Positions 1 to 29,009 of a stretch of DNA of 31,747 bases are shown here, piece after piece. The stretch comes from a virus. The position numbers were made by a program, and so were the translations under genes. The DNA is taken from IMG/VR virus record IMGVR_UViG_3300031952_000091, positions 1 to 31,747 of that record; one strand, written 5' to 3'. Below the pieces are notes generated by a model. That model worked only from the letters and a program-made list of their open reading frames with translations. It was not told where the DNA came from and did no database searches. Position 1 is the stretch's first letter, and each line of letters starts with the position of its first letter.

Positions 1-3000
1 ATTGTAGCAGCCCCCGCCCCAGGTCCACGGAAAGTAACTGAGTTGCGGTTGATAGTAATTGTTCCAGTGGTTTTGTAAATACCTGACGGGAAAAATACAG
101 TTGCACCCCTATCACCTGCAGTGGCAGTAATTGTATCCCTGATAGCTGTTGTATCATCTGTAGAACTATCGCCAGTAGCACCATAGTCTTTGACGTTGTA
201 GACATTAAACACGCCAGGTATAGCACCAAATGAGGGCGCAGCACTGACACCACCACCTTTTAATACTGTTCCAATCGCACCTAAAGCAGCTTCAGAAATT
301 ACACCAGTGCCATTTGTATATAGTGACTTCCAGTTTCCATATGCCCCACCACTAGGGGGTGCGGTAAAGGTTGGTGCTGAACTCGCTCCTGAACTGGTCA
401 GGACCGTGCCATTTGCACCCAATGCAAGCTCTGTAAAAGCACCACTTCCATCTGAGTAAAAGGCTTTCCAGTAGCCCCTGGTAGCAACAAGTCTTGACGT
501 GTCGGACGCATGTATGTGGTCGGCCCTGGGGATTGTAGACAGTGCGCCGACACTCACCGATCCGTCCATTTTTATGTTTGACGTAGAAGTTTCAAAATTC
601 TGATTGAATGCAGTGCCTTTGCTTGAAATTACAGGTTCCCTGCTTGTATCAGAAGCATGAACGTGGTCACGTCTAGCTGCAATAACTGCCGTTCCAGGTG
701 CGGCAGTACCATTCATAGCCGGATTTGTAGTATCGAATAATGCTTTATTTGTATATGCTGTTTCGGCATTTGCTATGCCAACAACATTAACTAATCCAGA
801 TGCAGGTGCAGTAGCTTTTACCAGCAATCCGTGATTTGTCGTATTCGCATTGAGGTCGGTATTGTCATCTGGTGTAGCAAAATCATCTAGCTTTGTCGCT
901 GTTGTAGCAGCTCCAATATATGTTTTTACACGACTCATCGCACATTTTCTATTAGTTCCAGCACCACCATCATCGACAAGAATGAGATCGGCATCTGCCA
1001 GTGCGGCCCCTATATCTGTTCCACCGTCGAGATTAACGTCAGTTATATCTCCATCCCATGCATCAGCAGTAGCAGCTTGCCATGAACACGTACCATCTCC
1101 ATCTTCACGAAGAAATTTACCCGCTCCTGTTTCGCCAGTAGACAATATAGCCGTTCCTTCGTGTGCGTGTGCTGCGGCAGCGAAATAACCGACATTTTGA
1201 GCGGCGGCGGTTCCAAGCGTAGGTCTATTCCTTAAATCTGTATAATATATTTGAGCACCGTCACCACTACCGTTGTGGTCGTGGCTGTCACCGTTTGTTA
1301 CACCTTTTGCCAATGGCGCATATCTCGCATCTCCTCTGGTATTGTTGTGGTACTGAGTATGGTCATCTGCGGACAATCCCGTTAATGAACTGTGGCTTAT
1401 AGACACGCCTGAACTCGATGAACCATATCCAAATATACGTGGAAGATAGGGACGCACATCATGGATACGTGTACCTATACTGGTATCTTCGGCTTGTGCG
1501 ACAATAGTTGCTAGAAATACATTCACATTGCCAACATTAGTTGGCACTGTTGGAATCGCAGCAGCCAGTGCATCTTCTTCAGTAGCATATTCGGCTTGAC
1601 CGTAGACATAATACATCGTACCGCCTGGCGATCTATATACAAGACTTTTTGTCCAATACGTTGCAGTACACGTAATAAGTGCTGAACCATAGTTTTTTGT
1701 TATATCATTCCAAACCGTAGGATTACAAGAAGATACAACATCACCTACCCATCCAAAATTTGCGGTTTTGTACATTCTCACAAATGACGTTGTAGCGGCT
1801 AACGTATAGGTGTTGACATTGACATTTATTGTACCCTCTGCAGCACTAAGCGTTAAATTGGTAGTACCTTCAGACAATGAACAGCCCTCTTCAACCAAAG
1901 CACGTACAGCATTTGTAGCAAAATTAGCAAGTCGTTCCGCTATTTTGCTTGTGTAAACTGGTGTATTTACAACATCAGCAAGCAATGTATTTCCTAAAAC
2001 TGTATAAAGAACACCTAGTAAAACATGTACAGTCATATCTGGATCTGCATTTAATATTACTACTTCATTTGCGGCATTAATACAAACCACATTTAGGCCA
2101 TCATATAATGTAGATAATCCATAAGTTGTTGTTGCTTTCATACATCTTGCGATTGTTGCCGTACCATTAGAAACATATACTACATATGGCGCAATGGCGA
2201 ATGTTATTCCACCAGTAGGAATAAGTGTACCACCAGTAACAACACCACTGCCATGACACTCAATATTCTGTAGTTCGATTGCATCGACTTCATCATTTGT
2301 AGGTATTGAAACGCCGTTAATTTCATATGTAGATCCATCTCTCAAATTCACGCCATTTGCATCGATGGTCATGACCGTATCGGCAGGGTGAGCTTCATGT
2401 GCTGTGCCAGCAATAAAAAATTTAATATCTTCCCCAGGTGTCATTGTACCCATGACAAGGCTACCACCATCGTCGTATAAATACATATCATGTGGCGCAA
2501 AAATATCCCATGCCGTCGATACGTAACCTGAGTTGCAAATACCATAATCGGCGTAATAACTTTCGTCATCGCCATCATTGGCAGTTATAATAAAATCTGC
2601 AGTAGCGTCACCGCCATTATTTATATTTTGCAGATTTACCTGCACATAGGAATTGACATCGCCACCTACAGATAATGGGCTATTGGGTAATATTTCTGGT
2701 ACGGAAATTTTGAGCGCAGTCCCTATTCCAACAACACCATCAACGTCGTTGAACGTAAAATTGGGATTTCCAGCCAGTGTGCCAGCATTATTATATTGTA
2801 TTTCTGTATCGTTACCACCTGCCGTTGCCGTAACATCTACCCATTCCGTGTCATAATCGTCACCACTTATTTTTGCCAAGACCTGACCAGGATCGCCACC
2901 TACGGGTAAGTCACCGTCACCGCCACCACCGCCGTTTTTCCAACATATGTCATAGTCGGCATTACTTTGTTTTGCTAAAAACTGACCATTAGTTCCACCA

Positions 3001-3140
3001 TTGGGAACGCCCCTGGTGTTGCCATAAATTGTCTTAAACCGTTGCACATCAGATGAAACGGTTAAGTGGATTTGGGTATCGGGTGAACCCTTATAATTTA
3101 GTTTATCCGGCGGTGTTATTACAAATTCATTAACGCTCAT
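1..3140 (-). CDS. Large tailspike/tail fibre, 3' end beyond the left edge (partial)
   Basis: An uninterrupted frame runs from an ATG at 3140 to the left edge: 1,046 codons with no stop. I checked every triplet. The start overlaps the stop of the upstream 99-aa gene as ATGA. A Gly/Asp-rich linker (about residues 67-90) follows the N-terminus. Around 592-613 there is a DDHTQYHN...GDARYAPLAKG segment of the kind found in phage fibre shafts. Two copies of a DHxHASDTSR motif lie at about 822-833 and 871-883. Two related segments (GYWKAFYSDGSG and GNWKSLYTNGTG) follow. From about residue 980 the text reads FNVYNVKDYGATGDSSTDDT, then ATVFFPSGIYKTTGTI. That is the classic entry into a pectate-lyase-type right-handed beta-helix, as in tailspike depolymerases. 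Visible architecture is therefore attachment region, shaft, then enzyme domain. The catalytic part lies outside the window. Likely role: receptor binding and perhaps polysaccharide cleavage. Confidence 0.85.
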   Translation of the reverse strand, partial: MSVNEFVITPPDKLNYKGSPDTQIHLTVSSDVQRFKTIYGNTRGVPNGGTNGQFLAKQSNADYDICWKNGGGGGDGDLPVGGDPGQVLAKISGDDYDTEWVDVTATAGGNDTEIQYNNAGTLAGNPNFTFNDVDGVVGIGTALKISVPEILPNSPLSVGGDVNSYVQVNLQNINNGGDATADFIITANDGDDESYYADYGICNSGYVSTAWDIFAPHDMYLYDDGGSLVMGTMTPGEDIKFFIAGTAHEAHPADTVMTIDANGVNLRDGSTYEINGVSIPTNDEVDAIELQNIECHGSGVVTGGTLIPTGGITFAIAPYVVYVSNGTATIARCMKATTTYGLSTLYDGLNVVCINAANEVVILNADPDMTVHVLLGVLYTVLGNTLLADVVNTPVYTSKIAERLANFATNAVRALVEEGCSLSEGTTNLTLSAAEGTINVNVNTYTLAATTSFVRMYKTANFGWVGDVVSSCNPTVWNDITKNYGSALITCTATYWTKSLVYRSPGGTMYYVYGQAEYATEEDALAAAIPTVPTNVGNVNVFLATIVAQAEDTSIGTRIHDVRPYLPRIFGYGSSSSGVSISHSSLTGLSADDHTQYHNNTRGDARYAPLAKGVTNGDSHDHNGSGDGAQIYYTDLRNRPTLGTAAAQNVGYFAAAAHAHEGTAILSTGETGAGKFLREDGDGTCSWQAATADAWDGDITDVNLDGGTDIGAALADADLILVDDGGAGTNRKCAMSRVKTYIGAATTATKLDDFATPDDNTDLNANTTNHGLLVKATAPASGLVNVVGIANAETAYTNKALFDTTNPAMNGTAAPGTAVIAARRDHVHASDTSREPVISSKGTAFNQNFETSTSNIKMDGSVSVGALSTIPRADHIHASDTSRLVATRGYWKAFYSDGSGAFTELALGANGTVLTSSGASSAPTFTAPPSGGAYGNWKSLYTNGTGVISEAALGAIGTVLKGGGVSAAPSFGAIPGVFNVYNVKDYGATGDSSTDDTTAIRDTITATAGDRGATVFFPSGIYKTTGTITINRNSVTFRGPGAGAAT

Positions 3141-3436
3141 AATGGTATGTATTTTCCCTCAAAGTGTGTACGTGTGTAGCCGTCAATAGTTATTCTTAAC
3201 TGCCAAACCTCTCCACCTTCAAGTGTTGCGGTTTGCACTTCAGTAAGAGTCAATGTGCGTGTATATTGGTCTACTGTTGCAACGGTAAAATTCATACCAC
3301 CTATTGTTGCGGTAAGTGTTGCAGCAGTTAATGAAAACGGTGCTGTGATTTCAAATTGAAAGTCATCACCTGCCCTGAAGGATAGATCCAAAATATTTAT
3401 ATTCTGTTCAATTTTTTGTGTTTCGTCTGTTGCCAT
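3137..3436 (-). CDS. Small beta-rich tail-associated protein
   Basis: A 99-residue protein with no membrane segment or Cys. It begins MATDETQKIEQNINILDLSF and continues with alternating short hydrophobic and polar stretches (FQFEITAPFSL, ATLTATIGGMNF, VWQLRITIDGY), which suggests one small beta-sandwich. The AAGG site upstream and the ATGA overlap with the tailspike start point to translational coupling. Phages often place small immunoglobulin-like or BppU-N-like attachment proteins directly before a fibre gene, and the length and composition would fit that. I cannot assign a family. The likely role, by inference from position, is a connector or accessory of the distal fibre. Confidence 0.6.
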   Translation of the reverse strand: MATDETQKIEQNINILDLSFRAGDDFQFEITAPFSLTAATLTATIGGMNFTVATVDQYTRTLTLTEVQTATLEGGEVWQLRITIDGYTRTHFEGKYIPL

Positions 3437-3446
3437 GTTTTGTACC

Positions 3447-3944
3447 TTAAATTTGTATGATAAGACCTACGGCCACGCCCATTTCTCGATTGGTTGAAAA
3501 TATACCGCCGCCGATACCTACCCAGGGTATTAACATGCGATAATATTCCAGCTTGGCCCCGTGCGAAAAAGTAAGATCGGAATGACCAAATCCAAACACA
3601 CCTATATAGTTCAATAAAATAACATTTTTCTTAAAATCTGGTACTCTGGCTTTTAATTCAAATATTGTTTCTGCTTTTTTAAACCCATCATTTGATGTAA
3701 CAAGCAATTGATTGCCCTTCATTTTACCAGTTATCTTAACTTTTGCAAATTTCCATTCATTCAAAGCTGCAGGTGTATCAGGAGTTTTAGTGACTTGTGT
3801 AGTTGTTTTTAATTGTTTGGTAATTTCAACAGGTGGTTTTTGTCGGTCGTAATAGGCTTTTGAACCGAACCAAGTTCCACTGACGATGACTGCTAATACG
3901 ACAATTGAACTTGCTGTTGTGATAGCGATTGTTTTTATACTCAC
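3447..3944 (-). CDS. Membrane-anchored protein of unknown function, next to the M23 lysin
   Basis: The protein has 165 residues. Residues about 5-27 (IAITTASSIVVLAVIVSGTW) form one hydrophobic helix, followed by a Lys/Thr/Pro-rich linker (about 33-60) and a folded C-terminal half. The tail end has two hydrophobic, Gly-rich strands ending in VGLIIQI, like the last strands of a membrane beta-structure. It has an AGAGGTG-type ribosome site and lies just downstream of the M23 endopeptidase gene, so a lysis or envelope role (spanin-like or host-membrane protein) is plausible. That is inference only, because the spanin hallmark of a long periplasmic coiled coil is not visible. It could equally be a virion membrane-contacting protein. 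Confidence 0.6.
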   Translation of the reverse strand: MSIKTIAITTASSIVVLAVIVSGTWFGSKAYYDRQKPPVEITKQLKTTTQVTKTPDTPAALNEWKFAKVKITGKMKGNQLLVTSNDGFKKAETIFELKARVPDFKKNVILLNYIGVFGFGHSDLTFSHGAKLEYYRMLIPWVGIGGGIFSTNREMGVAVGLIIQI

Positions 3945-4726: not shown

Positions 4727-6217
4727 TTAAGTTACATCACAAGATTGATCGTCTCTAAATGTGTTTGTACCACCCCATGCAGCCGTTGATGGAGTACCAC
4801 TTTTTCTGCACCCATTACTATATGTACAACTATAATAACAATGTCCAGTAGTACTACCATAGCCAGTAGCCGTGGTATTAGATATTTGATCGCAAAATGC
4901 AAAACCACGACCAGTTGCACTTCCGGTAGCAGCAAATCCATTACAATTCATAATTTTTTCTGAGTTGGTAAACCCACTCCTTGACCCCGTAGCAGAACTT
5001 ACACCAGTACCGGTACAATTTATGACATAAGAACAATAAGAAAAACCTGCCCCCGATGCCGTACCAGTAGCCGTACCAGTACCGGTACAATTTATTACAT
5101 AATCACAATCGTAAAATCCGTTGCCTTGGGAATCCGTACCAGTAGCCGTACCAGTACCGGTACAATTGTCTAAATTATTACATATATTGAATCCAGTACA
5201 AGTAACGGAGTTACCAGATCCAGTATGGGTTCCAACACAATTAACCAAATTATTACAAGATGAAAATGCAGAACCATTAGTCGAACTAGTTACTGCCCCC
5301 GTACAATTTGTTAAATTTATACAATAATAGAACGCAGTTACATTTCCTGTGCCACTAGCCGATACGGTCAACCCTTTTATTTCATACTTGTTGTCTGTCG
5401 GACGAGCAGTATATTTAATACCATACTGTCCAGTAGTTAAACTTGAAACAGTTAATGTCGCACCGTTGATAGCATGTATTTTCTCCACTGTTGATGGTAT
5501 TGTTGTTTGTGCTGCTCTTGTTATGTTACAAGTAAATAATACATTTTTAGCATTTAACCAAGTACTACTTGCAACAAGCAAATCAAATTTATCTTGTGAA
5601 TCCACTATATAATCATATATAGGACTTACAACAGGGAACGATGGGCTACGCACACCTAAATCAGCATAAGTCGTCCCTGTCATGGTGAATTTGCCTAAAA
5701 TAGCTGCAGTAGCTACTGGATCTGAGGAAGCAAATAAATCATCGGTACTGGTGCTGATATAACCATTGCTGTCACCCATATAAGTATCAATAATTTGATA
5801 GTGATATGATGTACCGGCTTTATGATTGCGAGTTGCAGTTCCCAATTTGAAATCGTAACGTGCAGTAACCCATATGCTACGGCCATCATTCCATCCCGAA
5901 GGTAATGAAACGTTGTTAAGTGCAGGTATATGTACCAACCTTTTTTTGCTATTAGTGTCAAGTGTTCGCACCACACCTTCGGTTATATTTATTTTACCGC
6001 TACCGGCATCACTGACTCTGCCGCCATACAGTATTAAAAATGTCGTTGTTGGCGCACCTGAAATTGCTGACAATGAATCCGCTATTTTTTCTTGTAGATA
6101 TTCATGGTCGGCCTGTGCGTCTGTAATTAAATAATAATCACCATTGGCATCTGGTGTATGTGCCGCTACTTCGCCATCCCAATATAAATTAGTAAAAACT
6201 TCTGCGAAAATTCCCAT
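4727..6217 (-). CDS. Tail fibre with a C-terminal Cys-ladder repeat domain
   Basis: The protein has 496 residues. Residues 1-200 look like a fibre attachment region: LYWDGEVAAHTPDANGDYYL, then a segment LVHIPALNNVSLPSGWNDGR resembling other phage fibre N-domains. Residues about 205-290 lead into a repeat region (297-470) of eight units averaging 23-24 residues. Each unit carries the pattern F-x-x-C-x5-C-T-G followed by Thr/Gly/Ser-rich turns. Cys pairs are at 299/305, 321/327, 346/352, 371/377, 395/401 and 464/470. In unit six only the second Cys (425) remains and in unit seven only the first (442). Regular spacing and NCTGTG-type rungs suggest a parallel beta-solenoid with stacked Cys and Asn. 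AAGGAC lies eight bases before the ATG. It follows the gpI-like gene directly, as expected for the fibre attached to the baseplate. Confidence 0.75.
   Translation of the reverse strand: MGIFAEVFTNLYWDGEVAAHTPDANGDYYLITDAQADHEYLQEKIADSLSAISGAPTTTFLILYGGRVSDAGSGKINITEGVVRTLDTNSKKRLVHIPALNNVSLPSGWNDGRSIWVTARYDFKLGTATRNHKAGTSYHYQIIDTYMGDSNGYISTSTDDLFASSDPVATAAILGKFTMTGTTYADLGVRSPSFPVVSPIYDYIVDSQDKFDLLVASSTWLNAKNVLFTCNITRAAQTTIPSTVEKIHAINGATLTVSSLTTGQYGIKYTARPTDNKYEIKGLTVSASGTGNVTAFYYCINLTNCTGAVTSSTNGSAFSSCNNLVNCVGTHTGSGNSVTCTGFNICNNLDNCTGTGTATGTDSQGNGFYDCDYVINCTGTGTATGTASGAGFSYCSYVINCTGTGVSSATGSRSGFTNSEKIMNCNGFAATGSATGRGFAFCDQISNTTATGYGSTTGHCYYSCTYSNGCRKSGTPSTAAWGGTNTFRDDQSCDVT
4808..5329 (-). 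repeat. Eight degenerate repeats of 66-75 nt inside the fibre gene
   Basis: These encode the Cys-ladder units. At DNA level a 34-bp segment beginning ccgtaccagtagccg is repeated exactly at 5059-5092 and 5134-5167, 75 bp apart (25 codons). A 19-bp part recurs at 5004-5022. Exact tandem copies inside a receptor-binding gene offer a route to change the number of rungs by recombination or slippage. Confidence 0.8.
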
Positions 6218-6218
6218 T

Positions 6219-6794
6219 TTATACCGTCCTTAATATAGTCATACTTGAATTTACCAAATAAATTTGGTAAAATGCTGGCAAAAGAAAATTTTGTCTGTAT
6301 GCAAGTACAATTGCATCTAATTCGTCATTATCAGTTGTTTTAACATCAACGTATATTTCAAAAATTACTGCAGGGGATGCCCATACCCTGTCGCCACCAT
6401 CTGGTACACCAGCCATGTGCCATGACGAAACGCCCCATACCGACCAACCCGTTTCATAAGCGTTAAAAATTTCGCCTCTTGTGCCTACAATTGCTTCTGC
6501 ATAGTCAAGATATAATTCACCTGTAGCCTTTTTCTTAAAGATTGTAGCAAATGTTCTAATTTTTAATCTTTTTGAAGATAGACTTTCTGTAGGCCAAGTT
6601 TCAATACCACGTACCTTTAAGGCAAGTTCAAGTGCAAGCAACGGCATTTTTGATATATTGCGCAGATTATATAAATCATAGGTCTTATTCATTACGTAAT
6701 CTACGTTATCATCAACAATGGTTTGGAAATCTACCCAATCACTTCCAAACTGGCTGTTGAAATAGGGTATGTTAAAATTAAACCAATTATTCAT
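6219..6794 (-). CDS. Baseplate/tail protein I (P2 gpI-like)
   Basis: This 191-residue protein lies immediately after the gpJ-like gene, with a TAATG start-stop overlap. In P2-type baseplates gpI follows gpJ and links the wedge to the fibre. Central residues LLALELALKVRGIETWPTES and RLKIRTFATIFKKKATGELY resemble the helical N-terminal part of gpI-like proteins. The C-terminal part contains the beta-rich segment AVIFEIYVDV. The next gene is the fibre, which completes the usual J-I-fibre order. Assignment rests on order, size and general similarity rather than on a diagnostic motif. Confidence 0.7.
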   Translation of the reverse strand: MNNWFNFNIPYFNSQFGSDWVDFQTIVDDNVDYVMNKTYDLYNLRNISKMPLLALELALKVRGIETWPTESLSSKRLKIRTFATIFKKKATGELYLDYAEAIVGTRGEIFNAYETGWSVWGVSSWHMAGVPDGGDRVWASPAVIFEIYVDVKTTDNDELDAIVLAYRQNFLLPAFYQIYLVNSSMTILRTV

Positions 6795-8284
6795 TATGTT
6801 ACCGTAACCGTACCAACGTTTATAATCTCATCTGCAGCCGGTGTAACATTCGCTGCAGGCGTAGTCAGAGAAAAAATATCACTGCCATAATCATATAGAC
6901 AATCACCCATTGACCATAACACGCCTATTTCAAGTGGTTGTTCCCATTGCCGATATTCCCTGGTTCCAAGCAGATCAATCCATTTCAGAATAACTATTTC
7001 AAGCGCTTCATTCTCATATTCTGTAAATGCATATGCAAATAATGAATTAATAACCAACGTCCGACAGGCATCAATGCCCCAATCAGCATAATATTCTATG
7101 ATTTCGTTGTCATTTGCCATAGTGGCCAATGACAGGGCAAAAGCAACAAGATGGCGTACAGTAGCGCCAACAAAACCTGGTCTGACAGTAGTAGTTGCCG
7201 TTATATTGACTACCTTATATGCAGCAGTGGATGCAGTAATTGGCATAGCACCAAATTGTGTACGGGCCTTGACGTAATCCTCAACATCGGATAATAAACC
7301 GCCGCCAGCAGTGCCACCCCCACTTGGTACAATATGTACACCGGCTTCACCAACCCCAGGGAATCCAAGAGCTTTGACAACTTGACTTGACGATGCACGG
7401 GCAGCAAATTCAAGATCCTCTTGGCTCCAAACCACATCTTTAAACCTGACAGACGATCTGGCATTTCTGATAATGGCATTAACACCTTCGCTGTCATTAC
7501 CACCGACACTTTCTGCATTTGTTATAGACAATATATCGGGATCATTGCCAACATTTATTATTAATAAACCCGCACCCATTCTACCCGGTAATCCTTTTGT
7601 TATGGCAAAATCACCATACACAGTTAAGCCCGATGTCGGTTTGGCCCCTGTAACGCCATCACCAAATCCTATTCTTGTTTTACCCGAACTCTGATATATA
7701 AGAATAAAGTGTTTATCTGTTGAACTGCTATCATCAAAATTATTAACTCTCGTCCACGTATCTCCATCAATTATTAATGATATTGTATCACGGATAATAT
7801 TCAAATAACCATCAATGGGATAATCGAGAAAATCACCTGTTGCAGTAACAAATAACCCTTTATCTTCAAATAATTGTTTTTGTTTGGAAGCAACAGTAAT
7901 CGTACTCGTGCCGCCACTATTACCTTCTGCAGTCAATTCATAGATAACGATTTGTCCTGTAGCTAGAGAAATACCACCAACCTGATAGCCAACAGCCAAA
8001 GTTTTGGCTTTTGCCGATGTCAATGTAATTGTCAGTGCTGCAGTAGCACCATCAGCCTCAACAGGAGCATAATCACATATATCGGCAAATGAATATGCAC
8101 TTTCCCTGGTAATTGGGTATAATATGTCAGTTGCTATCCTGTTCTGTATCTCAGACTGGTGATCGAACATACCCGACATTTCATGGAACAGCCATGTCGG
8201 TTTTTGTGGGTATGCCAATGTAAGAGGTAGAAAAACATCATAATATGCTCTTGCATTGTGCTTATATAAATTTTGTATTGCCAT
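6794..8284 (-). CDS. Baseplate assembly protein J (gpJ / gp6-like wedge)
   Basis: The protein has 496 residues. Its features match the baseplate J family: an N-terminal helical region (NRIATDILYPITRESAYSFADIC), a beta-rich middle (TWTRVNNFDDSSSTDKHFIL, then TRIGFGDGVTGAKPTSG), and after it SVGGNDSEGVNAIIRNARSSVRFKDVVWSQEDLEFAARAS. The FGDG and ESVGGxD motifs are typical of gpJ/Mu gp47 proteins. Together these form the wedge ring that triggers sheath contraction. It sits between the gp25-like and gpI-like genes, in the canonical order. The start is a TAATG overlap with the gp25-like stop, and no independent Shine-Dalgarno is seen, so translation is probably coupled. Confidence 0.88.
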   Translation of the reverse strand: MAIQNLYKHNARAYYDVFLPLTLAYPQKPTWLFHEMSGMFDHQSEIQNRIATDILYPITRESAYSFADICDYAPVEADGATAALTITLTSAKAKTLAVGYQVGGISLATGQIVIYELTAEGNSGGTSTITVASKQKQLFEDKGLFVTATGDFLDYPIDGYLNIIRDTISLIIDGDTWTRVNNFDDSSSTDKHFILIYQSSGKTRIGFGDGVTGAKPTSGLTVYGDFAITKGLPGRMGAGLLIINVGNDPDILSITNAESVGGNDSEGVNAIIRNARSSVRFKDVVWSQEDLEFAARASSSQVVKALGFPGVGEAGVHIVPSGGGTAGGGLLSDVEDYVKARTQFGAMPITASTAAYKVVNITATTTVRPGFVGATVRHLVAFALSLATMANDNEIIEYYADWGIDACRTLVINSLFAYAFTEYENEALEIVILKWIDLLGTREYRQWEQPLEIGVLWSMGDCLYDYGSDIFSLTTPAANVTPAADEIINVGTVTVT

Positions 8285-8668: not shown

Positions 8669-9214
8669 TCATTCTCCTTTTATTTTAATGGAAAGTATAT
8701 CTGTTGGTTTTGTTGCCATAATCGTAGGGGCCGATGTCACACCTGCTGCCGGATCATTATGGATGTGAGTATTGAACCTAGTATCAATATAAGTGTCTAG
8801 ATAAGTTTTTAATTTAGTACCAAGTACAAAAGGTTCAGTTGCAGTCTTACTTGATAGATACATAATACCAGTTGTATCGGCATAAATAACTTGACTGAGT
8901 AATTGTATTAACATCTGGTCTGTGCTTGCCGGTGTAACTGCATCAGCGCAATCTGCCAAGCCTGTATAGAAAAACCTTCTCTCACCGTCAACAGTGGGTT
9001 CAACAAGTAATTTCCAACCAACCTGTACACGCAGATACGGTATAGACAGCCCATACCTGCAATAGATCAGATTTGGCATGACATATCCCATTTCAGGTAT
9101 TTCACAATATATTGCACCTTTGTGTGCAACACCACCTTCAGTAGCACACCTGGCCTGTACTGCAGTGGGATCTACTATTTTGGCAATTGCTATATATTTT
9201 GTGATGTTTGTCAT
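8669..9214 (-). CDS. Baseplate central spike (gpV / gp5-like) with HxH apex motif
   Basis: The protein has 181 residues. The N-terminal half (about 6-90) is beta-rich, consistent with the OB-fold of membrane-piercing spikes (AKIVDPTAVQARCATEGG, VQVGWKLLVEPTVDGERRFF). The C-terminal part has FNTHIHNDPAAGVTSAPT at about 148-164. Spike proteins such as P2 gpV carry an H-x-H motif near the tip that binds an iron ion, and H150/H152 fit it. It follows the gpD-like hub gene and precedes the gp25-like gene, the normal order for a hub-spike pair. An AAGGAC site lies before the ATG. Confidence 0.8.
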   Translation of the reverse strand: MTNITKYIAIAKIVDPTAVQARCATEGGVAHKGAIYCEIPEMGYVMPNLIYCRYGLSIPYLRVQVGWKLLVEPTVDGERRFFYTGLADCADAVTPASTDQMLIQLLSQVIYADTTGIMYLSSKTATEPFVLGTKLKTYLDTYIDTRFNTHIHNDPAAGVTSAPTIMATKPTDILSIKIKGE

Positions 9215-9216
9215 TA

Positions 9217-10560
9217 TTATGTCCTTAATGTAGCTTTTATTTCAGACTTCAACATGCCCTGTTGGTATGTCAGTGTAGTTTCTTTTATGTTTATTGCGAT
9301 AGCTTTTGCCCCATATGTCTTTGTCGATTTCTCATACAACCATCCAGGTAAGTCAGTATTTAATTTATTGGTATAGTCACCACCGGCATAAATTACACCA
9401 GTGCAAGGTGCTCTTAAATTCACATCTCCTTCATTTAATACAACAGTCAGTGCAATTGCAGATCCATCAGCACTATTTGGAGCAAGTGTATCCGATTTAT
9501 TCGGTGCGCCATCGCCGTCTGTTTCATAGAAATATCGTAGTGCTTCCTTACCCTTGCCAGTTATTGTTAATTCTGCAGCATATGCAGAAAATTGTCCGAA
9601 CATCAACGGATCAGTTTTGGCAAGTTTTTGGAATTTCTCTTTCATCGTATAAGTCACACCATCAACTAATAACTTATATTTATTTGTCTGCGAACCATCT
9701 TCTTTGAACATGACCGAACTTGGTTCTGTTGCAGATCCACCTATGGTAACGCCTTGTGACCATTCCACGGATTCGGCATAGTGCATATATATTTTGCCTC
9801 TGTTTGTCCTATACCCAATGATATATTCATTTGGAGATCCTGGCATCCTGTTCTTTACACCCATTAAACTGCCGTTCTTACACGCACCTTCAATGTCAGC
9901 AACAACTATAGTTGGTATGAGTGACGTGTTGTCAAAATAATAAACCAATCCCCAATCTCTTACTAATTTGTCAAGCATTTCCATATCTGTACATGTCTGT
10001 AGCGGTACTTGTGTGGGTTTAAGTATCATATCTTTTGCTAAAAAATTTAATTGATAACCCTGTAAAGACACAATTTCAGCAAATATTGTCTGATATGTCG
10101 CAGGCGTCATAAATTTACGTCTGCGTTGTTGATTGGAAAATAATATTTCCGGCCCATACGCCTTTACAGAAAAGTTCACCATATCTTTGGCATTGCCATA
10201 GGGATACGCCCTCATCTCACCATCGAAACATACAACGGGTTTATCCATGTCATTCCAAAACGTGATACGAATTTTGGAACCTCTTAAAAATATTTCCTCA
10301 ATGTATTTGTCTTGTGTAATGCTTATATCAAGTTCAGATGGTGCATGTTCTTTTTTGTCCATTGTCCGCTGTGCTATGCCATCACTTGATTCTGCAAATT
10401 TATTACGTCTTGCCTTGCCCTCTGATATGCCATACCTTATTTTAATCGAACTCACATAAGGGCCAATGACACGGGTAAAGTCAAAATAATGTGCGCTCAG
10501 TGGTGGAGCGACTTCAATTTTCCACTTCACCATCCTTGAATTGCATTTCATTACAGCCAT
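9217..10560 (-). CDS. Baseplate hub, late control gpD-like (gp27/VgrG N-domain type)
   Basis: This 447-residue protein is of the size and kind of phage late-control gene D products. It contains SVKAYGPEILFSNQQRRRKF, the segment TYQTIFAEIVSLQGY, and the typical QTCTDMEMLDKLVRDWGLVY followed by YFDN, which is common to gpD, Mu gp44 and VgrG proteins. The trimeric hub caps the tail tube and holds the spike. The next gene encodes the spike. The start is a TAATG overlap with the 90-aa gene and lacks its own strong ribosome site. A second Met at residue 4 is possible as the start. Confidence 0.85.
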   Translation of the reverse strand: MAVMKCNSRMVKWKIEVAPPLSAHYFDFTRVIGPYVSSIKIRYGISEGKARRNKFAESSDGIAQRTMDKKEHAPSELDISITQDKYIEEIFLRGSKIRITFWNDMDKPVVCFDGEMRAYPYGNAKDMVNFSVKAYGPEILFSNQQRRRKFMTPATYQTIFAEIVSLQGYQLNFLAKDMILKPTQVPLQTCTDMEMLDKLVRDWGLVYYFDNTSLIPTIVVADIEGACKNGSLMGVKNRMPGSPNEYIIGYRTNRGKIYMHYAESVEWSQGVTIGGSATEPSSVMFKEDGSQTNKYKLLVDGVTYTMKEKFQKLAKTDPLMFGQFSAYAAELTITGKGKEALRYFYETDGDGAPNKSDTLAPNSADGSAIALTVVLNEGDVNLRAPCTGVIYAGGDYTNKLNTDLPGWLYEKSTKTYGAKAIAINIKETTLTYQQGMLKSEIKATLRT

Positions 10561-10832
10561 TATAACACCGTATTTGTGGTATCAGCTTCAATTGGTATAT
10601 AGACATCACCAAGTCTGTACAAATCGCCACGTTCTTCCATGTATTGAATAAAATTGACATCAATAATTCGATAAGCAAATAATTCAGATCCAAAATATTT
10701 ATATGCGTAATGATCGAGTTCAAGATCGATAAATTTTGATTTAATTGTTTCACCGGCGACATAGGGTTCCCTATACATTTTAACAGTTAATCCGAACAAT
10801 TCCTGTTCTTCGACTTCATTCCATCTTAACAT
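10560..10832 (-). CDS. Small baseplate protein (gpX- or gp53-like)
   Basis: The protein has 90 residues with CGGAG six bases before the ATG. The C-terminal half reads FAYRIIDVNFIQYMEERGDL and ends in YIPIEAD. The pattern of a conserved Asn-containing strand, then GD and a YIP strand, is shared by small baseplate wedge and LysM-like proteins such as P2 gpX or T4 gp53. It lies directly before the gpD-like hub gene, which is the position of gpX in P2-type phages. The family choice is uncertain but a baseplate role is likely. Confidence 0.6.
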   Translation of the reverse strand: MLRWNEVEEQELFGLTVKMYREPYVAGETIKSKFIDLELDHYAYKYFGSELFAYRIIDVNFIQYMEERGDLYRLGDVYIPIEADTTNTVL

Positions 10833-11464: not shown

Positions 11465-13159
11465 CTATTTATAGACACCGATACCAGGTTGGCTTTGATC
11501 TCTCGGATCAAGATATGGCGTTAATACCGGATGTTGGTTGTAAACATATACTACGCTATTACTTACAGTGCCTTTAGCCCTACCACCACCTATCCAATTA
11601 CCTGCAGCATCAATATCGCCCCTTTTCCGTGCGGCTTCCATTTTTTTTAAACCTTCTGCAGTATATTCATTAAACCAACCCTGGTTAAGCCCATATTCTT
11701 TCTCAGCAGTTGCAGTATTAACAACACTTTTCATATACGATGAAGTAGCATCTGCAAGTGATGCGTCAGAAAGAACACCGAAAGCATTTAAAATGCTATA
11801 AACAACTTTTCTCAAATATAACAAATTTGATATTTGTTTGGCGATCAAAGCATCAAGACCGATACCTACTCTACCCCACCCTGCAACTAATTCATCGAGC
11901 GGTCTTCTCATCTCTGCAACAACACCATCAAGAAATATATTAAATAGATTAAAAGTAACTCGTAGACCAGTTATAAAATCCGCTAACATCTCAACCATAG
12001 ATTGTGTTTTACCTATGCACCCATCTAAAGCTGCAGCAAGTCTAAATGGTAATACAATAAGATTTACTAACGCTTCTACAAATTTTAATATTATAACGAG
12101 TAATTCGGCTATTAAATACCCACATAGTCTTAATAATTGGTAAACCAACGAAAGCACGGGCATAATAGGTTCTAAAGCTATGTTTATTTGTGTAAGTAAA
12201 TCCCATATCCATGCAAAAATGCCACCGATGCCAGTACCAATTTCTGTTATATCATTTTTTGCACTAGCAAAAAAAGCGATACCACTTTCTTTTATGTCGA
12301 ACATTATATCTCTAATCTGCGACCAGAACGTAATAACACCAGGATCTTCTGAAGCACCAGTAAACGATATTAAAAATTCATCTGCAAAACCAGTAATGGT
12401 TGACCACAAACCTTCCATTGTCTTGCTGCGATTAATTGCAAGATCAAATATTTTTGGCATTTTACTCAATTCAACCATAAACGCACTGATTTGTGCTTGG
12501 CTGCCTAAATTACCAGATTGTTGTGATTTTTCATATGCATTTAATACATCAGGACCAAATGGGCGCAACAGCCTTTTATTGCCCTGTGTAACACCCCAAA
12601 TAGCACGTTCGGGGCCAAGCATACGACCCTCGGCATCGCTGAATGTACCTAAAGCATTAAAAATTTCCATAGCAGATCTATTGTTTTGTAACCCACCAGC
12701 ACCTTTTCTATATGGATCAAAACCAAATTGAGTCGCTTTCATAGTAGCAGATATTTGTTGTGTTGGTGTATAAGGTGTTGTTAAAGAATCTCTAATGGCC
12801 TCACGTACCAATCTCCTGGCTTCCTTACCACTTCCGGTAAATGCAGTCATCTGCACAATAGAATTTTCAACCAACATTCCAGCTTTTGCAATTGTACCAA
12901 TTATTGTGCTTACTGCTCTAAATGCGGCATATAACCCAAGTGTTGCCGCCCCTAACATGGCGAATTTACCGGCAAGGCCAACCGCAGCCTCACCGCCAAC
13001 ACCGCCACCAATACCACCAGTTATCCCGCCACCGCCACCATTGGCTCCACCCATAACTTTTGCTTTAGTGCGATCTAAAGTAGTATTGAGACGTTCAAGA
13101 TCCCTGATAGCTCTTGCAACATCCATGACAAATCTTATAGTTTGGGTTTTAACTGCCAT
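11465..13159 (-). CDS. Tail tape measure protein
   Basis: A 564-residue protein between the tail chaperone genes and the baseplate genes, which is the tape-measure slot. It has a helical N-terminus (VARAIRDLERLNTTLDRTKA), a Gly-rich hinge (37-57), and hydrophobic stretches at about 63-95 and 337-377. These are characteristic of tape measures, which set tail length and later enter the host envelope. The segment RDSLTTPYTPTQQISATMKA and the following FGFDPY region resemble tape measures of other myophages. At roughly 1.5 angstrom per residue it would give a tail near 85 nm, which is fairly short for a myovirus. AGGGAA precedes the ATG. Confidence 0.9.
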   Translation of the reverse strand: MAVKTQTIRFVMDVARAIRDLERLNTTLDRTKAKVMGGANGGGGGITGGIGGGVGGEAAVGLAGKFAMLGAATLGLYAAFRAVSTIIGTIAKAGMLVENSIVQMTAFTGSGKEARRLVREAIRDSLTTPYTPTQQISATMKATQFGFDPYRKGAGGLQNNRSAMEIFNALGTFSDAEGRMLGPERAIWGVTQGNKRLLRPFGPDVLNAYEKSQQSGNLGSQAQISAFMVELSKMPKIFDLAINRSKTMEGLWSTITGFADEFLISFTGASEDPGVITFWSQIRDIMFDIKESGIAFFASAKNDITEIGTGIGGIFAWIWDLLTQINIALEPIMPVLSLVYQLLRLCGYLIAELLVIILKFVEALVNLIVLPFRLAAALDGCIGKTQSMVEMLADFITGLRVTFNLFNIFLDGVVAEMRRPLDELVAGWGRVGIGLDALIAKQISNLLYLRKVVYSILNAFGVLSDASLADATSSYMKSVVNTATAEKEYGLNQGWFNEYTAEGLKKMEAARKRGDIDAAGNWIGGGRAKGTVSNSVVYVYNQHPVLTPYLDPRDQSQPGIGVYK

Positions 13160-13167
13160 TTTATTCC

Positions 13168-13431
13168 CTATTCATAATCTTCTTCATCTACTGTGCGTTC
13201 CTTGAAATCTTCTTTCGTTTCTTCATATATACGGAACAACCTATTTATTCCTATAGAATCAACAATATCCGGCGACCATTTGTATCTCATCCTTAACAAT
13301 CGATATATACTGTAATATATATCAATAATAGTCTCCAATGTCATCCACGCCGATTCTTTATATTTTAACTCCCATCCAGTATAGGGATAACCCTTATTGC
13401 CAATACTAGGATACCAAAACACTTCTGGCAT
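13168..13431 (-). CDS. Tail assembly chaperone C-terminal part, probably made by -1 frameshift
   Basis: The ATG-bounded reading has 87 residues, with a helical body rich in aromatic residues (LETIIDIYYSIYRLLRMRY) and an acidic end. The ATG at 13431 lacks a properly spaced ribosome site (AAAGG only two bases away). The frame stays open upstream across the slippery TTTTTTC in the preceding gene. In that mode it adds 102 residues to the first 274 of the upstream protein, giving a 376-residue fusion. This parallels the P2 E/E+E' and lambda G/GT pairs that lie between tube and tape-measure genes and escort the tape measure during tail assembly. Independent expression from the internal ATG cannot be excluded. 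Confidence 0.75.
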   Translation of the reverse strand: MPEVFWYPSIGNKGYPYTGWELKYKESAWMTLETIIDIYYSIYRLLRMRYKWSPDIVDSIGINRLFRIYEETKEDFKERTVDEEDYE

Positions 13432-13482
13432 TGCCTTTAACGGACGTGGTTTGATTTCTTCGGCAATAAGGGTAAGAAAAAA
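13390..13482 (-). promoter_or_regulatory. Programmed -1 ribosomal frameshift signal (slippery site plus stem)
   Basis: On the minus strand the heptamer T TTT TTC (13482-13476) is in the correct phase of the upstream gene (codons AAT TTT TTC). An overlapping A AAT TTT also satisfies the rule. Two bases further a perfect 12-bp inverted repeat starts: ACCCTTATTGCC at 13473-13462 pairs with GGCAATAAGGGT at 13401-13390, across a 60-nt loop. The -1 frame is open from the slip site into the 87-aa gene. The short spacer is unusual, but partial opening of the stem would lengthen it. Confidence 0.75.
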
Positions 13483-14297
13483 TTTGTATAGTCCAGTCCA
13501 TCCCTTATTTCGTTACCACATATTTTGCAATAAACAACTCTATCTCTGGCATCAATACCAACAAGATTAGCAGCCATAGCTTCTTCTGCAGCGTCTTGAT
13601 TGGCTTGGGTGTTCAAATACGTTCCAGAAAATGACTTCTCCGGCACACGTTTGATCCGGTTAAAATCAACTTCTGACATGCCATGTATTTTGACAATGGA
13701 AGCATCCCAACACGCTCTAATCATATTGGCTTCGCTTGCCATAGCCCACTGGCTGCGATGTATTTTCAACATGTCGCCAATACTGATGTGTTGCATAGTA
13801 ATGGTTTTAAATACACCACCAGCCATTGTTTTATTCGATTGAATGTCAATAGGATCTGGCAATTCTACGTCAAAAGTAACATCACTGTTCCTAAGAAAAA
13901 TCTCATCTATAATACCCGTATCAATAAGAGTTTGCCAACTCTCATTGACATCAGTGTATTGTTCCATTTTTGGCCGACTGCAGCGATTGCAATAAAAACT
14001 TTCTGGAATAATGGGATGAGTTTCACCAGTTTTTAGTTTAATGTTCTCATATCCTATCTTCCAGGTATCAATAACCTTTATATCTTCATAATCCTGTGGC
14101 TTTAGAACATATTCTTCATTGTCCTCTGTAAAGAACGATGAAACCGTGCCTTTGATCAGATTCAATAATCTCGCCGCACCGGTTTTCTCTGCACCGTCAA
14201 GCATTGCGATAACCCCTCCGGTGAGGGGTTTTACTATCGCATGATTATACCATTTATTTCCCCTTGTTATCCCACAATAAAGTTGAAATTTACTCAT
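13437..14297 (-). CDS. Tail assembly chaperone, zinc-type, 0-frame product (T4 gp26-like?)
   Basis: The protein has 286 residues, encoded between tail tube and tape measure. Two CxxC pairs, C103/C106 (FYCNRCSRPK) and C257/C260 (VYCKICGNEI), could jointly hold one zinc. The middle contains PDPIDIQSNKTMAGGVFKTI. A long chaperone with split CxxC pairs is reminiscent of T4 gp26-type baseplate-hub/tail-assembly proteins, but I am not certain of the family. The last 12 codons lie beyond a slippery TTTTTTC (F273-F274), where a -1 shift would replace the end with 102 residues from the next gene. GAGG lies 12 bases before the ATG. Confidence 0.7.
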   Translation of the reverse strand: MSKFQLYCGITRGNKWYNHAIVKPLTGGVIAMLDGAEKTGAARLLNLIKGTVSSFFTEDNEEYVLKPQDYEDIKVIDTWKIGYENIKLKTGETHPIIPESFYCNRCSRPKMEQYTDVNESWQTLIDTGIIDEIFLRNSDVTFDVELPDPIDIQSNKTMAGGVFKTITMQHISIGDMLKIHRSQWAMASEANMIRACWDASIVKIHGMSEVDFNRIKRVPEKSFSGTYLNTQANQDAAEEAMAANLVGIDARDRVVYCKICGNEIRDGLDYTNFFLPLLPKKSNHVR

Positions 14298-14301
14298 AAA
14301 A

Positions 14302-14712
14302 TTAAATTACCTCTTGTATAAATTCAGGAAGCAGAACATATTTTTTCTTGTCAACTTCTTTGCTATCACGGTTGAAAGCATTCTTTTTACCCATAGCAAG
14401 TGAAGTGTTCGTGAACAGATACGTAAGAACAGGTGTTTTTGCCGAGTTGTAATAAACGACATAGATGTCTTTTATCGCACCAGACTGACACCAATCCTGG
14501 CATATCTCATATTCATACCGATCTTTGGTAAGAAGGATAGTCAATTCAACTTCACCGATGTCAAAGATCTGGTCACGAACACCATATTTTCTTTCGCCAT
14601 CAGCTACTTTAATCCGACCTTCTTCTCCCTCTGAGAACTCCCCTACTTCCAGGGGATATATTTTTTTACCATCTATTTCTATCCAGACATTTAGCGATTG
14701 AGCACGGGCCAT
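14302..14712 (-). CDS. Tail tube protein
   Basis: This 136-residue beta-rich protein follows the sheath gene directly, the universal sheath-tube order of myophages. It contains LNVWIEIDGKKIYPLEVGEF, then a block VELTILLTKDRYEYEICQDW and TPVLTYLFTNTSLAM. Size is typical of single-domain tube proteins that stack as hexamers to form the DNA channel. A strong AAGGAGG site eight bases before the ATG suits a high-copy structural protein. Confidence 0.82.
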   Translation of the reverse strand: MARAQSLNVWIEIDGKKIYPLEVGEFSEGEEGRIKVADGERKYGVRDQIFDIGEVELTILLTKDRYEYEICQDWCQSGAIKDIYVVYYNSAKTPVLTYLFTNTSLAMGKKNAFNRDSKEVDKKKYVLLPEFIQEVI

Positions 14713-14725
14713 ATTATTATCCTCC

Positions 14726-16519
14726 TTATCCTCTTACTGACGTAACTGGTGCAGATGCTATTGACAGTATCAATTCTTCAATAGGCGGTACTGCAACAAA
14801 CTGGAGGAATATCTGTTCAATTCCATTTGCAATATCAGCCAAAGTATTGATACTAAAGTCATTTATAATCAAGCACACATCTGAAAAACCAGTATCACTG
14901 CCATCTGCTTTCTGACCAACAAAAAGTTGTCCGGCATCAAATTTTTTCTTCATATAACCCCAAACAGTATTGTAATGACTGTTCTGAGCACTCTTACCAG
15001 ACTGGTCCTGTTCAACTTCACGCAGGTACGTTACAATTGACCGTGAATACAGTAAAAACTGCATGATCTGGTTTTGGTACATGTACCCTGCATCAGTGCT
15101 GAATGTTCTGGCACTGTTGTTTGTAATGCCTTTGCCACGTCTGTACCGGCAAATATTTATGCTATAATTTTTAATCAATCTCGACCCCACACCTTCTTGG
15201 TCGTCATGTACGAGATTATTTGAATCAAGCAGTTGATCATTACATTTTAAAATCATTTCTGATTTATTACCAGCAGCTACTTTGGCTTCACCAAATTTTG
15301 AATAAGTATTGAACCACAGTGCTGTGTCAGTACCAACTTTGGGTATGTGTTTATAACCGCCTATAACAGTGGGATCAACAACATTTATCCATTTGTCGCT
15401 AGGTAGCATTGCAAATACAATAGCACCCCTTAACGATGCACCAAAATTTTTAAGAGTAGCTTCAACAGCACCATCAGAAGCCTGTGCGTAATAGATGCCC
15501 TTGTAATTCGATGTACAGAAATTAGCCATATTTGTATTATGGGTAATTGTTGCACTTTCAGGCGCAAGCATGATCGTAAACTCAGTTGAATTGAGATACG
15601 TGTTTGCCAGTGTATTCCAGTTTGCGTCAACAAATGCAGACCCATCACTTCCACTTGTCAATGGCGTCCATGCCGTAAGATCAGCAGGTAATTGTGTTAA
15701 GGCCGGAGTATTGTTAGAAGCATTAATAGCGAGTTTAACATACTCTGAACCAGTTATTAAATCATTTACTAATACAGCCAAACCAACCGTATCTGATTTA
15801 GCAAATGGTGCTTCCCAAGTTTCCTGTTTCTGATAATTGCCAGAAGAATCTTTTAAAGCAATTTCAAGTTTAACATCAGATCTGCTTGCAGTTGTACTCG
15901 CAACAGTTAAAGTCTGCGCCAAAGTAACTGCAGAAAAAGTTATTTTCTTTAAAGCAGTATCAATGACAGTAATAACAACCATAGCCGTTACTTCGCCAAC
16001 CAGCTTTACATAATATCCGACTTGCAGATTATCAACGCTATCAAGATATGCAACAGTCGCACCAGTAGCAATGTTAGCAGTAATCTTCATTGTGACGTTA
16101 TTAGTTTTAGTTGTCTTAATAGCTATTTTATTTCCAAAAGCGGACTTATCAACTAAACCACGATACGCTGCATTAACGTCAAAAATTTTAAGTGGTGCTG
16201 AGTCAAGTAATGCATATGTGGCTTGTGCTGCACCAGCATCAACATAACTCAATACTTTCATTTCACAACTTACATTTTTGTCCAGTTCTTTATAAAAAGA
16301 ATCTGCAACATATGCAGCCATCCATGTATTGTTGTAACCACCGCATTTTGGATAGAAGTCATTCATTGAATAGATCTCATCCATTAAAACCGGCAGTCCA
16401 CCGCTATCTACAATACCACGTTCTGCCTTACCAAGCAACAGAACCTTAAATATATCAATATCGGTTAAAATTGCACCGCCAAGTGCGGGAACTCTTTGTG
16501 CTCTTGCTCCGTAACCCAT
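14726..16519 (-). CDS. Contractile tail sheath protein
   Basis: The protein has 597 residues. The N-terminus gives the family pattern VPALGGAILTDIDIFKVLLLGKAERG. The C-terminal third carries FSDVCLIINDFSINTLADI and ends in FLQFVAVPPIEELILSIASA, the usual final strands that weave sheath subunits together. It is larger than P2 gpFI and close to T4 gp18. The extra length is a beta-rich insertion around residues 140-260 (TANIATGATVAYLDSVDNLQ), probably surface exposed. GGAGG lies nine bases before the ATG, and the start overlaps the previous stop as TAATG. Confidence 0.92.
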   Translation of the reverse strand: MGYGARAQRVPALGGAILTDIDIFKVLLLGKAERGIVDSGGLPVLMDEIYSMNDFYPKCGGYNNTWMAAYVADSFYKELDKNVSCEMKVLSYVDAGAAQATYALLDSAPLKIFDVNAAYRGLVDKSAFGNKIAIKTTKTNNVTMKITANIATGATVAYLDSVDNLQVGYYVKLVGEVTAMVVITVIDTALKKITFSAVTLAQTLTVASTTASRSDVKLEIALKDSSGNYQKQETWEAPFAKSDTVGLAVLVNDLITGSEYVKLAINASNNTPALTQLPADLTAWTPLTSGSDGSAFVDANWNTLANTYLNSTEFTIMLAPESATITHNTNMANFCTSNYKGIYYAQASDGAVEATLKNFGASLRGAIVFAMLPSDKWINVVDPTVIGGYKHIPKVGTDTALWFNTYSKFGEAKVAAGNKSEMILKCNDQLLDSNNLVHDDQEGVGSRLIKNYSINICRYRRGKGITNNSARTFSTDAGYMYQNQIMQFLLYSRSIVTYLREVEQDQSGKSAQNSHYNTVWGYMKKKFDAGQLFVGQKADGSDTGFSDVCLIINDFSINTLADIANGIEQIFLQFVAVPPIEELILSIASAPVTSVRG

Positions 16520-28371: not shown

Positions 28372-28532
28372 CTAATCAACTCCCTTTGATCCGGTTTTAT
28401 ATTATAATATTCAAGTTCATCTTTAGTGAACCGCAACTTCTGTATTAACAATGGGTGCATATAAATAGAACACGGTTTAAACTTTTTAAACACACCCAAT
28501 TCATCAATTTTTTTATTAACATCTTTTTCCAT
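28368..28532 (-). CDS. 54-residue hypothetical protein
   Basis: Opens with MEKDVNKKIDELGVFKKFKP and ends KPDQRELIR. The start overlaps the end of the upstream zinc-protein gene by 17 nt and the stop is in ATGA overlap with the HNH-like gene, filling what otherwise looks like a 144-nt gap. The ribosome site is weak, so translation is probably coupled. It is soluble and charged, and no family is recognised. Confidence 0.6.
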   Translation of the reverse strand: MEKDVNKKIDELGVFKKFKPCSIYMHPLLIQKLRFTKDELEYYNIKPDQRELIR

Positions 28533-28926
28533 TGTTTTCTATTGTTACTAAGTTTATATGATGAAATCTATAATCTACAAAACAATCACTACATATATAT
28601 TTATTGCCTTCACGGTGTTGATATATAACATTTATCATGTCAGTTTTTAGATAAACATTACCACATTTCATACACTGTACATCAGTTTTAATACATGTTG
28701 CTTGAGCCTTTTTAATATTTTCAAACCTCTTACAATCTTTTGTTAATCCTTTTGGCTTCCAAAATGCCAGTCTATTTTTATTTTGAATATAATAATCTTT
28801 TGCATCATTAGAACGACATGCCTTACATTTACCGCAATAACCAGACTTTGCCACTTTACTCTTAGGAAAGTCAGACAATGGTTTATCTTCACCACAACCA
28901 TGTCCTCTATAATCTTTACATATCAT
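28516..28926 (-). CDS. Double zinc-ribbon protein, endonuclease VII-like N-terminus
   Basis: I start at ATG 28926 (136 residues). AAGG lies 11 bases upstream, and the ATG overlaps a micro-gene stop as ATGA. A TTG at 29019 would add 31 residues without a ribosome site. C3, C11, C31, C34 and C37 lie in MICKDYRGHGCGEDKPLSDF and SGYCGKCKACRSNDAKDYY, the pattern of recombination endonuclease VII-like proteins (Cys pair, KPLSxF, YCxxC-x-C). A second set, C85/C88 and C112/C115, forms another ribbon. The nuclease His/Asn motif is not evident, so it may bind DNA or RNA only. Confidence 0.6.
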   Translation of the reverse strand: MICKDYRGHGCGEDKPLSDFPKSKVAKSGYCGKCKACRSNDAKDYYIQNKNRLAFWKPKGLTKDCKRFENIKKAQATCIKTDVQCMKCGNVYLKTDMINVIYQHREGNKYICSDCFVDYRFHHINLVTIENNGKRC

Positions 28927-29009
28927 ATTAAAAATAACCTTATACAACTCCATAATTTTGCATACAAAATAAATGCCATTGTTATGATTATAATGATATA
29001 TTTTTTCAT
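28923..29009 (-). CDS. 28-residue membrane micropeptide
   Basis: The sequence starts MKKYIIIIITMAFILYAKLW, which is one hydrophobic helix with a positive N-terminus. It has ATGA overlaps at both ends, with the M23 gene stop upstream and the zinc-protein start downstream, and fills the space between them exactly. AAGG is only two bases before the ATG, so translation would depend on coupling. Small size makes this tentative. Confidence 0.4.
   Translation of the reverse strand: MKKYIIIIITMAFILYAKLWSCIRLFLI

Follow-up and report, generated by a model that had tools for sequence, protein, structure and literature searches.

Evidence for a conserved programmed −1 frameshift with a long-range RNA stem in contractile-tailed phage tail chaperone genes that are likely distant relatives of T4-type gp26/gp51

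The lambda G/GT, P2 E/E+E′ and Mu FS-gp41 systems rely on a −1 slip toward the 3′ end of the first gene of a pair located between the tail tube and tape measure genes; in the lambda G/GT type, the short and long products have a common N-terminal part, occur in a fixed ratio, and are not part of the virion, and lambda G itself consists of ~140 aa. Here we describe a locus with the same arrangement in the IMG/VR virus record IMGVR_UViG_3300031952_000091, of which the entire stretch of 31,747 nucleotides (hereafter, the window) was analyzed. A conserved programmed −1 frameshift that provides a short and a long tail chaperone, likely distantly related to gp26/gp51 of T4-like phages, is by a wide margin the most probable reading of this locus. 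The evidence consists of sequence features, i.e., the slip site, the open −1 frame, the conserved extension, the covarying stem, and the gene order, from which we infer slippage itself, its efficiency, and the roles of both products. The same features support the programmed frameshift in a tail chaperone pair that had been proposed in the initial annotation of the window.

Gene block and slip site

The window belongs to a contractile-tailed virus of bacteria and contains capsid, portal, and terminase genes, in addition to a gene for a baseplate J-like protein. The tail block is encoded on the minus strand. The tail sheath protein (14726..16519) matches over its full length the ‘putative tail protein’ genes of Leptospira phages LE3 and LE4 (23%), whose counterpart is named tail sheath in the LE3/LE4 paper (PMC6078989); the same sheath search also returned metagenomic viruses. 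The tail tube protein (14302..14712; weak Phage_T4_gp19 match) is the upstream neighbor of the 286-aa tail/hub assembly chaperone (13437..14297; G-like, gp26-like), as it also is in LE4 and three metagenomic relatives (L003, L004, and L007), and the tape measure protein (11465..13159; phrog_991, E 4e-5) is the downstream neighbor. Between the tube and tape genes, as in the G/GT type, two ORFs overlap, with the downstream one in the −1 frame, and the tube–chaperone–tape order claimed initially is thus present in the window and kept in its relatives. Elsewhere in the window, an endonuclease VII-like gene (28516-29019) adjoins a metallopeptidase/endolysin-like gene (29006-30097).

The slippery heptamer T TTT TTC, reported by the initial annotation as being in phase with the upstream gene, was located at 13482-13476 on the minus strand; 12 zero-frame codons follow, and the stop codon that closes them (13439-13437) ends at a distance of 46 nt. 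It encodes the end of the slip peptide DYTNFF (residues 269–274 of the chaperone). The ORFs of the window comprise 7,985 codons with nine in-phase TTTTTTN, of which only this heptamer is no more than 60 nt away from a gene end. From the slip onward, the −1 frame is open for 102 residues (T-like extension, 13168..13476, minus strand) and runs, as had been noted, without a stop into the mechanically called 87-aa ORF (13168..13431, minus strand); recomputation gave the predicted product lengths of 286 and 376 (274 + 102) residues. Purine stretches resembling Shine-Dalgarno sequences are found upstream of the slip, e.g., GGAGGA in L004; with ~18 nt between them and the slip, the distance is too large to put them forward as a slip stimulator.

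A block of tube, chaperone (285–293 aa), −1 ORF (92–105 aa), and tape measure genes is common to nine phages, namely the window, LE3 and LE4 (near-identical to each other), and six metagenomic viruses (L003, L004, L007, L014, L018, and L025), with the sheath gene preceding the block in the same order in the metagenomic relatives and LE3/LE4. Chaperone homologues occupy the same place in all eight relatives, with 19–63% identity to that of the window, and four cysteines (C103, C106, C257, and C260, forming the CxxC pairs 103/106 and 257/260) and the two slip-site phenylalanines (FF) never vary. An in-phase X XXY YYZ heptamer shortly before the upstream ORF ends is another feature of the G/GT type. 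It is placed on the same Phe-Phe codons in nine of nine phages, and thus conserved as had been asked initially; the heptamer is T TTT TTC in seven (the window, L003, L004, L007, L018, LE3, and LE4) and T TTT TTT in L014 and L025, the T run of the latter being T7. A chaperone search among annotated phages gave no match, and a two-profile search of bacterial genome contigs did not find relatives. Two further observations concern the sheath region of the relatives: the L004 sheath (1415-3619) carries an insertion of ~135 residues as compared with its relatives, probably an extra surface domain, and in L014 a 190-aa ORF (8800-9372), HNH/NUMOD homing endonuclease-like by eye, is located between the sheath and tube genes.

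The gp33–gp34 pair of LE3/LE4 (LE4, NC_048679) resembles that of the window in gene order, in the T TTT TTC heptamer, and in the open −1 frame, despite a chaperone identity of 20% in LE4. No frameshift is annotated for it, and frameshifting is not mentioned in PMC6078989, whose consulted passages name neither LE4 product among the virion proteins. In the finished LE3/LE4 genomes, as in independent metagenomes, the reading frame is interrupted at the identical codon, which already contradicts the idea of one continuous 376-aa ORF from which a T is missing in the window through a sequencing error or gene decay. In favor of such an error, the site is a homopolymer of a metagenomic contig, and yet the zero-frame tails of 12–23 codons stay in frame; we regard this explanation as scarcely credible.

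The annotators of LE3/LE4 and of T4-like phages called separate small genes, and the window has an internal ATG (13431) only 5 nt past the zero-frame stop, so that an 87-aa protein might be made from a second gene by re-initiation or coupling. As initially remarked, however, this ATG lacks a good ribosome site, AAAGG being poorly spaced at just 2 nt upstream, and none of the relatives has a start codon at this position. The first ATG/GTG/TTG in the extension frame is at residues 16, 44, 33, 39, 75, 34, 30, 30, and 48 in the nine phages, thus moving by ~60 codons, whereas the −1 frame is open in all of them and conservation of the protein in the close relatives begins directly at the slip, upstream of those first start codons. 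In a tblastn search with the extension, four of six listed contigs were matched from residue 1, and the others from residue 18 or, for L032, from residue 1 (30%). Hence, independent initiation cannot account for the conserved product, and two separate genes would also leave the conserved in-phase heptamer and the covarying stem described below unexplained. Altogether, we consider two separate genes very unlikely; the 87-aa ORF is probably not a separately started gene, and, as judged by sequence comparison, the extension has no conserved start of its own and would be translated only as a fusion, in the manner of the G/GT type.

A long-range stem after the slip site

The perfect 12-bp inverted repeat initially noticed downstream of the heptamer was found between ACCCTTATTGCC (13473-13462) and GGCAATAAGGGT (13401-13390), beginning two bases 3′ of the heptamer on the minus strand. 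With one G·U and one A–U pair, the stem extends to 14 bp (5′ arm, 13460..13473; 3′ arm, 13390..13403) and encloses a loop of ~56 nt (13404..13459), which contains the zero-frame stop and a predicted inner hairpin whose position is not kept among the compared relatives. RNAfold of the region 13380-13490, the folding check suggested for this strand, gave −28.7 kcal/mol (z = −4.0), and none of 200 shuffles was equally stable. An equally good stem directly 3′ of a given point occurs at 0.1% of the positions of the window strand, and when the extension was recoded 600 times with synonymous codons, which keeps its protein, the quality of the window stem was never reached.

Stems of 9–14 bp begin 2–6 nt past the heptamer in all relatives but L014, with loops of 51–67 nt, or 124 nt in LE3/LE4 (LE4 stem, 11 bp). 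The arm sequences of L018 and LE4 are unlike those of the window and still pair well. RNAalifold applied to the seven sequences similar enough for a covariation analysis found, unprompted, 11 pairs of the same helix, five of which changed on both sides; double-sided changes were observed at six of the 14 stem pairs. Standard pairs account for 82.7% of the cells as compared with 30–50% when the arms were slid by 1–3 columns, and the covariation score was matched by 2 of 500 shuffles. Recodings as good as the observed stem were likewise rare (of 600 each: L004, 0; L007, 0; LE4, 0; L003, 1; L025, 1; L018, 9). The stem is thus real, on the strength of its RNAalifold detection, the double-sided changes, and its rarity under synonymous recoding. 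Conservation is among the lowest at the outer three pairs, and a well-kept core of ~8 bp begins 5–6 nt from the heptamer; of the two features initially called unlike textbook signals, the spacer is therefore ordinary, whereas the loop (51–124 nt) is indeed unusual.

The long loop, together with the stemless L014, could also be taken to mean that a frameshift occurs but that the inverted repeat has nothing to do with its stimulation and serves, e.g., as a terminator or a protein-binding site. We think this improbable, because the start of the stem tracks the heptamer (2–6 nt) even where the arms are not shared (L018 and LE4), compensatory changes are present in the arms, and the 3′ arm is not followed by a T run.

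In L014, no stem was found (257 of 600 recodings were as good), and the slip site has a T9 run (10638-10646). The conservation of both arms, which the initial annotation had asked about, therefore holds with compensatory changes in all relatives but this one; the stem is not universal, and the slip mode may be different in L014, where a switch to transcriptional slippage is possible. Applied to the locus in general, a frame change by the polymerase slipping on the T run, and not by the ribosome, would be in line with the T9 of L014 and the T7 of L025. Against it are the just T6 followed by C of the window and most relatives, a run short for transcriptional slippage, and the conserved RNA stem directly after the site, which argues for a ribosomal event; we give this explanation very little weight.

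Kinship with gp26 and the T4-like pairs

Pfam and PHROGs searches with the chaperone and the extension gave nothing above threshold; a presumed similarity between the extension and P2 GpE′ was not supported, and the window family had no match above the cut-off to PF12322. The AF2 model of the chaperone (pLDDT, 85.5) matched in Foldseek that of LE4 and named T4-like baseplate hub assembly proteins with E down to 3e-9, the best match being from Bacillus phage BCD7; the match to VH7D, whose gp26 belongs to PF12322, was moderate (E 6e-3; TM, 0.42), and a fold search against PDB gave no match. The model of the extension is of low confidence (pLDDT, 67). By hhalign, the window family matched a 13-member gp26 alignment (probability, 80.5%; E 1.3e-5; 96 columns) in the C-terminal zinc ribbon, with slip peptide on slip peptide, an earlier comparison with six gp26 sequences having given no match. 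The match of the window-family extension to the T4-like extension/gp51 C-terminus is not convincing (probability, 4.6%; E 0.009; 28 columns). These sequence and model comparisons suggest that the window chaperone is likely, though not proven, to be a distant relative of the T4-type gp26/gp51 hub-assembly chaperones (PF12322). The slip site is within the conserved C-terminal motif of the family, zinc-ribbon CxxC ... xxFF. The large, CxxC-bearing chaperone had been regarded as a possible unusual variant; it is better read as a likely gp26 relative than as an oddity among P2/lambda G proteins.

A search with the DNA pattern of the slip peptide found two T4-like contigs, L085 and L096, which are not independent tests since they were found through the slip motif itself. 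The gp26 of L085 (PF12322, E 2e-46) ends in DFTNFFV*; its heptamer is identical, the −1 frame is open, and the L085 extension matched 196 phage records, often spanning the annotated gp26–gp51 boundary. Among 22 T4-like phages checked, 20 have T TTT TTN at 10–16 nt from the gp26 stop and a −1 frame open into ‘gp51’; the arrangement is absent from the remaining two, Vibrio K413 and T4. Slip site and open extension are present in all 13 annotated marine T4-like phages, a set biased to extension-bearing phages because it was fetched through extension similarity, and in seven (VH7D, Cr30, OLIVR5, BUCT608, Asswx_1, phiM9, and BUCT-ZZ01) of eight others fetched through gp26 alone. In the positive set (L153–L157, L159–L166, L168–L172, L174, and L175), gp51 starts are annotated inconsistently or gp51 is missing. 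Long stems directly after the slip were seen in L085, L096, and Melnitz-2 (L156) (12–14 bp with loops of 32–34 nt; 11 bp with a loop of 86 nt), and some other T4-like gp26/gp51 sites have no such stem.

The T4-like gp26/gp51 pairs (e.g., of P-SSM4, S-SSM5, VH7D, phiM9, and Cr30) are the closest frameshifting counterparts of the window chaperone. Both have the C-terminal xxFF with the same slip heptamer, preceded in non-cyanophage gp26 by a CxxC zinc ribbon, and a small −1 extension, and their partner genes are those of the tail hub and tape. In contrast to the window, the T4-like pairs have the stop 1–2 codons past the slip, an extension of 56–67 aa that is not clearly homologous, and stems that are variable or absent, and they are annotated as two genes.

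T4 (L158) differs from the window in having two separate genes on opposite strands (gene 26, 5803-6429, minus; gene 51, 6480-7229, plus) and no slip site: its gp26 ends in GLKEFFELL, and the codons GAG TTC TTT GAG contain no slippery heptamer. T4 gp26 and gp51 (residues 1–201 of 249) both match PF12322 along the model length (E 9e-64 and 4e-52, respectively) and match each other (E 2e-6, single comparison). The part of gp51 beyond PF12322 resembles the extension that T4-like phages have in the −1 frame (hhalign probability, 89%; E 2e-6), and its C-terminus matches the extension of P-HM1 (BLASTP, 40% over 42 aa; E 2e-7). T4 gp51 thus consists of a gp26-like body and a C-terminal piece matching the −1 extensions of other T4-like phages, and for these reasons T4 has probably split the pair; in the simplest reading of these sequences, gp26 probably corresponds to the short product and gp51 to the long one, two genes replacing the slip. 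A −1 frameshift ancestral to the whole T4-type gp26/gp51 family, for which T4 substituted a duplication into genes 26 and 51, appears to us a fairly probable scenario, spanning the phages of the window, Leptospira phages, cyanophages, and schizo-T-evens. If this is true, T4 is no longer the standing exception among phages following the G/GT rule; Atkins and others described the G–T frameshift as conserved ‘except T4’ (PMC5009743).

Mechanism and comparison with known systems

In the mechanism we propose, a ribosome translating the 286-aa chaperone would have the lower part of the long-range stem at its mRNA entrance on reaching U UUU UUC. A minority of ribosomes would slip back by one base, the Phe-Phe tRNAs re-pairing on UUU UUU, and continue in the −1 frame to produce the 376-aa fusion. 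The short product, which would be abundant, and the rare long one may then work jointly on the tape measure and tube proteins, as lambda G/GT do, the common part coating or holding the tape and the extra C-terminal domain recruiting the tube or hub.

No report of a gp26/gp51 frameshift was found in the open-access literature searched. According to the pattern described here, the frameshift exists in T4-like phages as well, concealed behind separate gp26 and gp51 annotations, and gp51 would have a role as the long, GT-like form; laboratory phages would allow this to be tested directly. To the known tail-chaperone slip sites, the window family adds one with a covariation-supported long-range stem. 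Compared with the lambda G/GT type, to which the window pair has no detectable sequence kinship, it differs in its chaperone size (286 aa as against ~140 aa for lambda G), its CxxC pairs, its putatively gp26-like fold, its T TTT TTC slip, and its clear, conserved distal stem. The mechanism is thus of a known kind, whereas the gp26-type chaperone with a long-range covarying stem and the widening of the frameshift to T4-like phages appear to be new.
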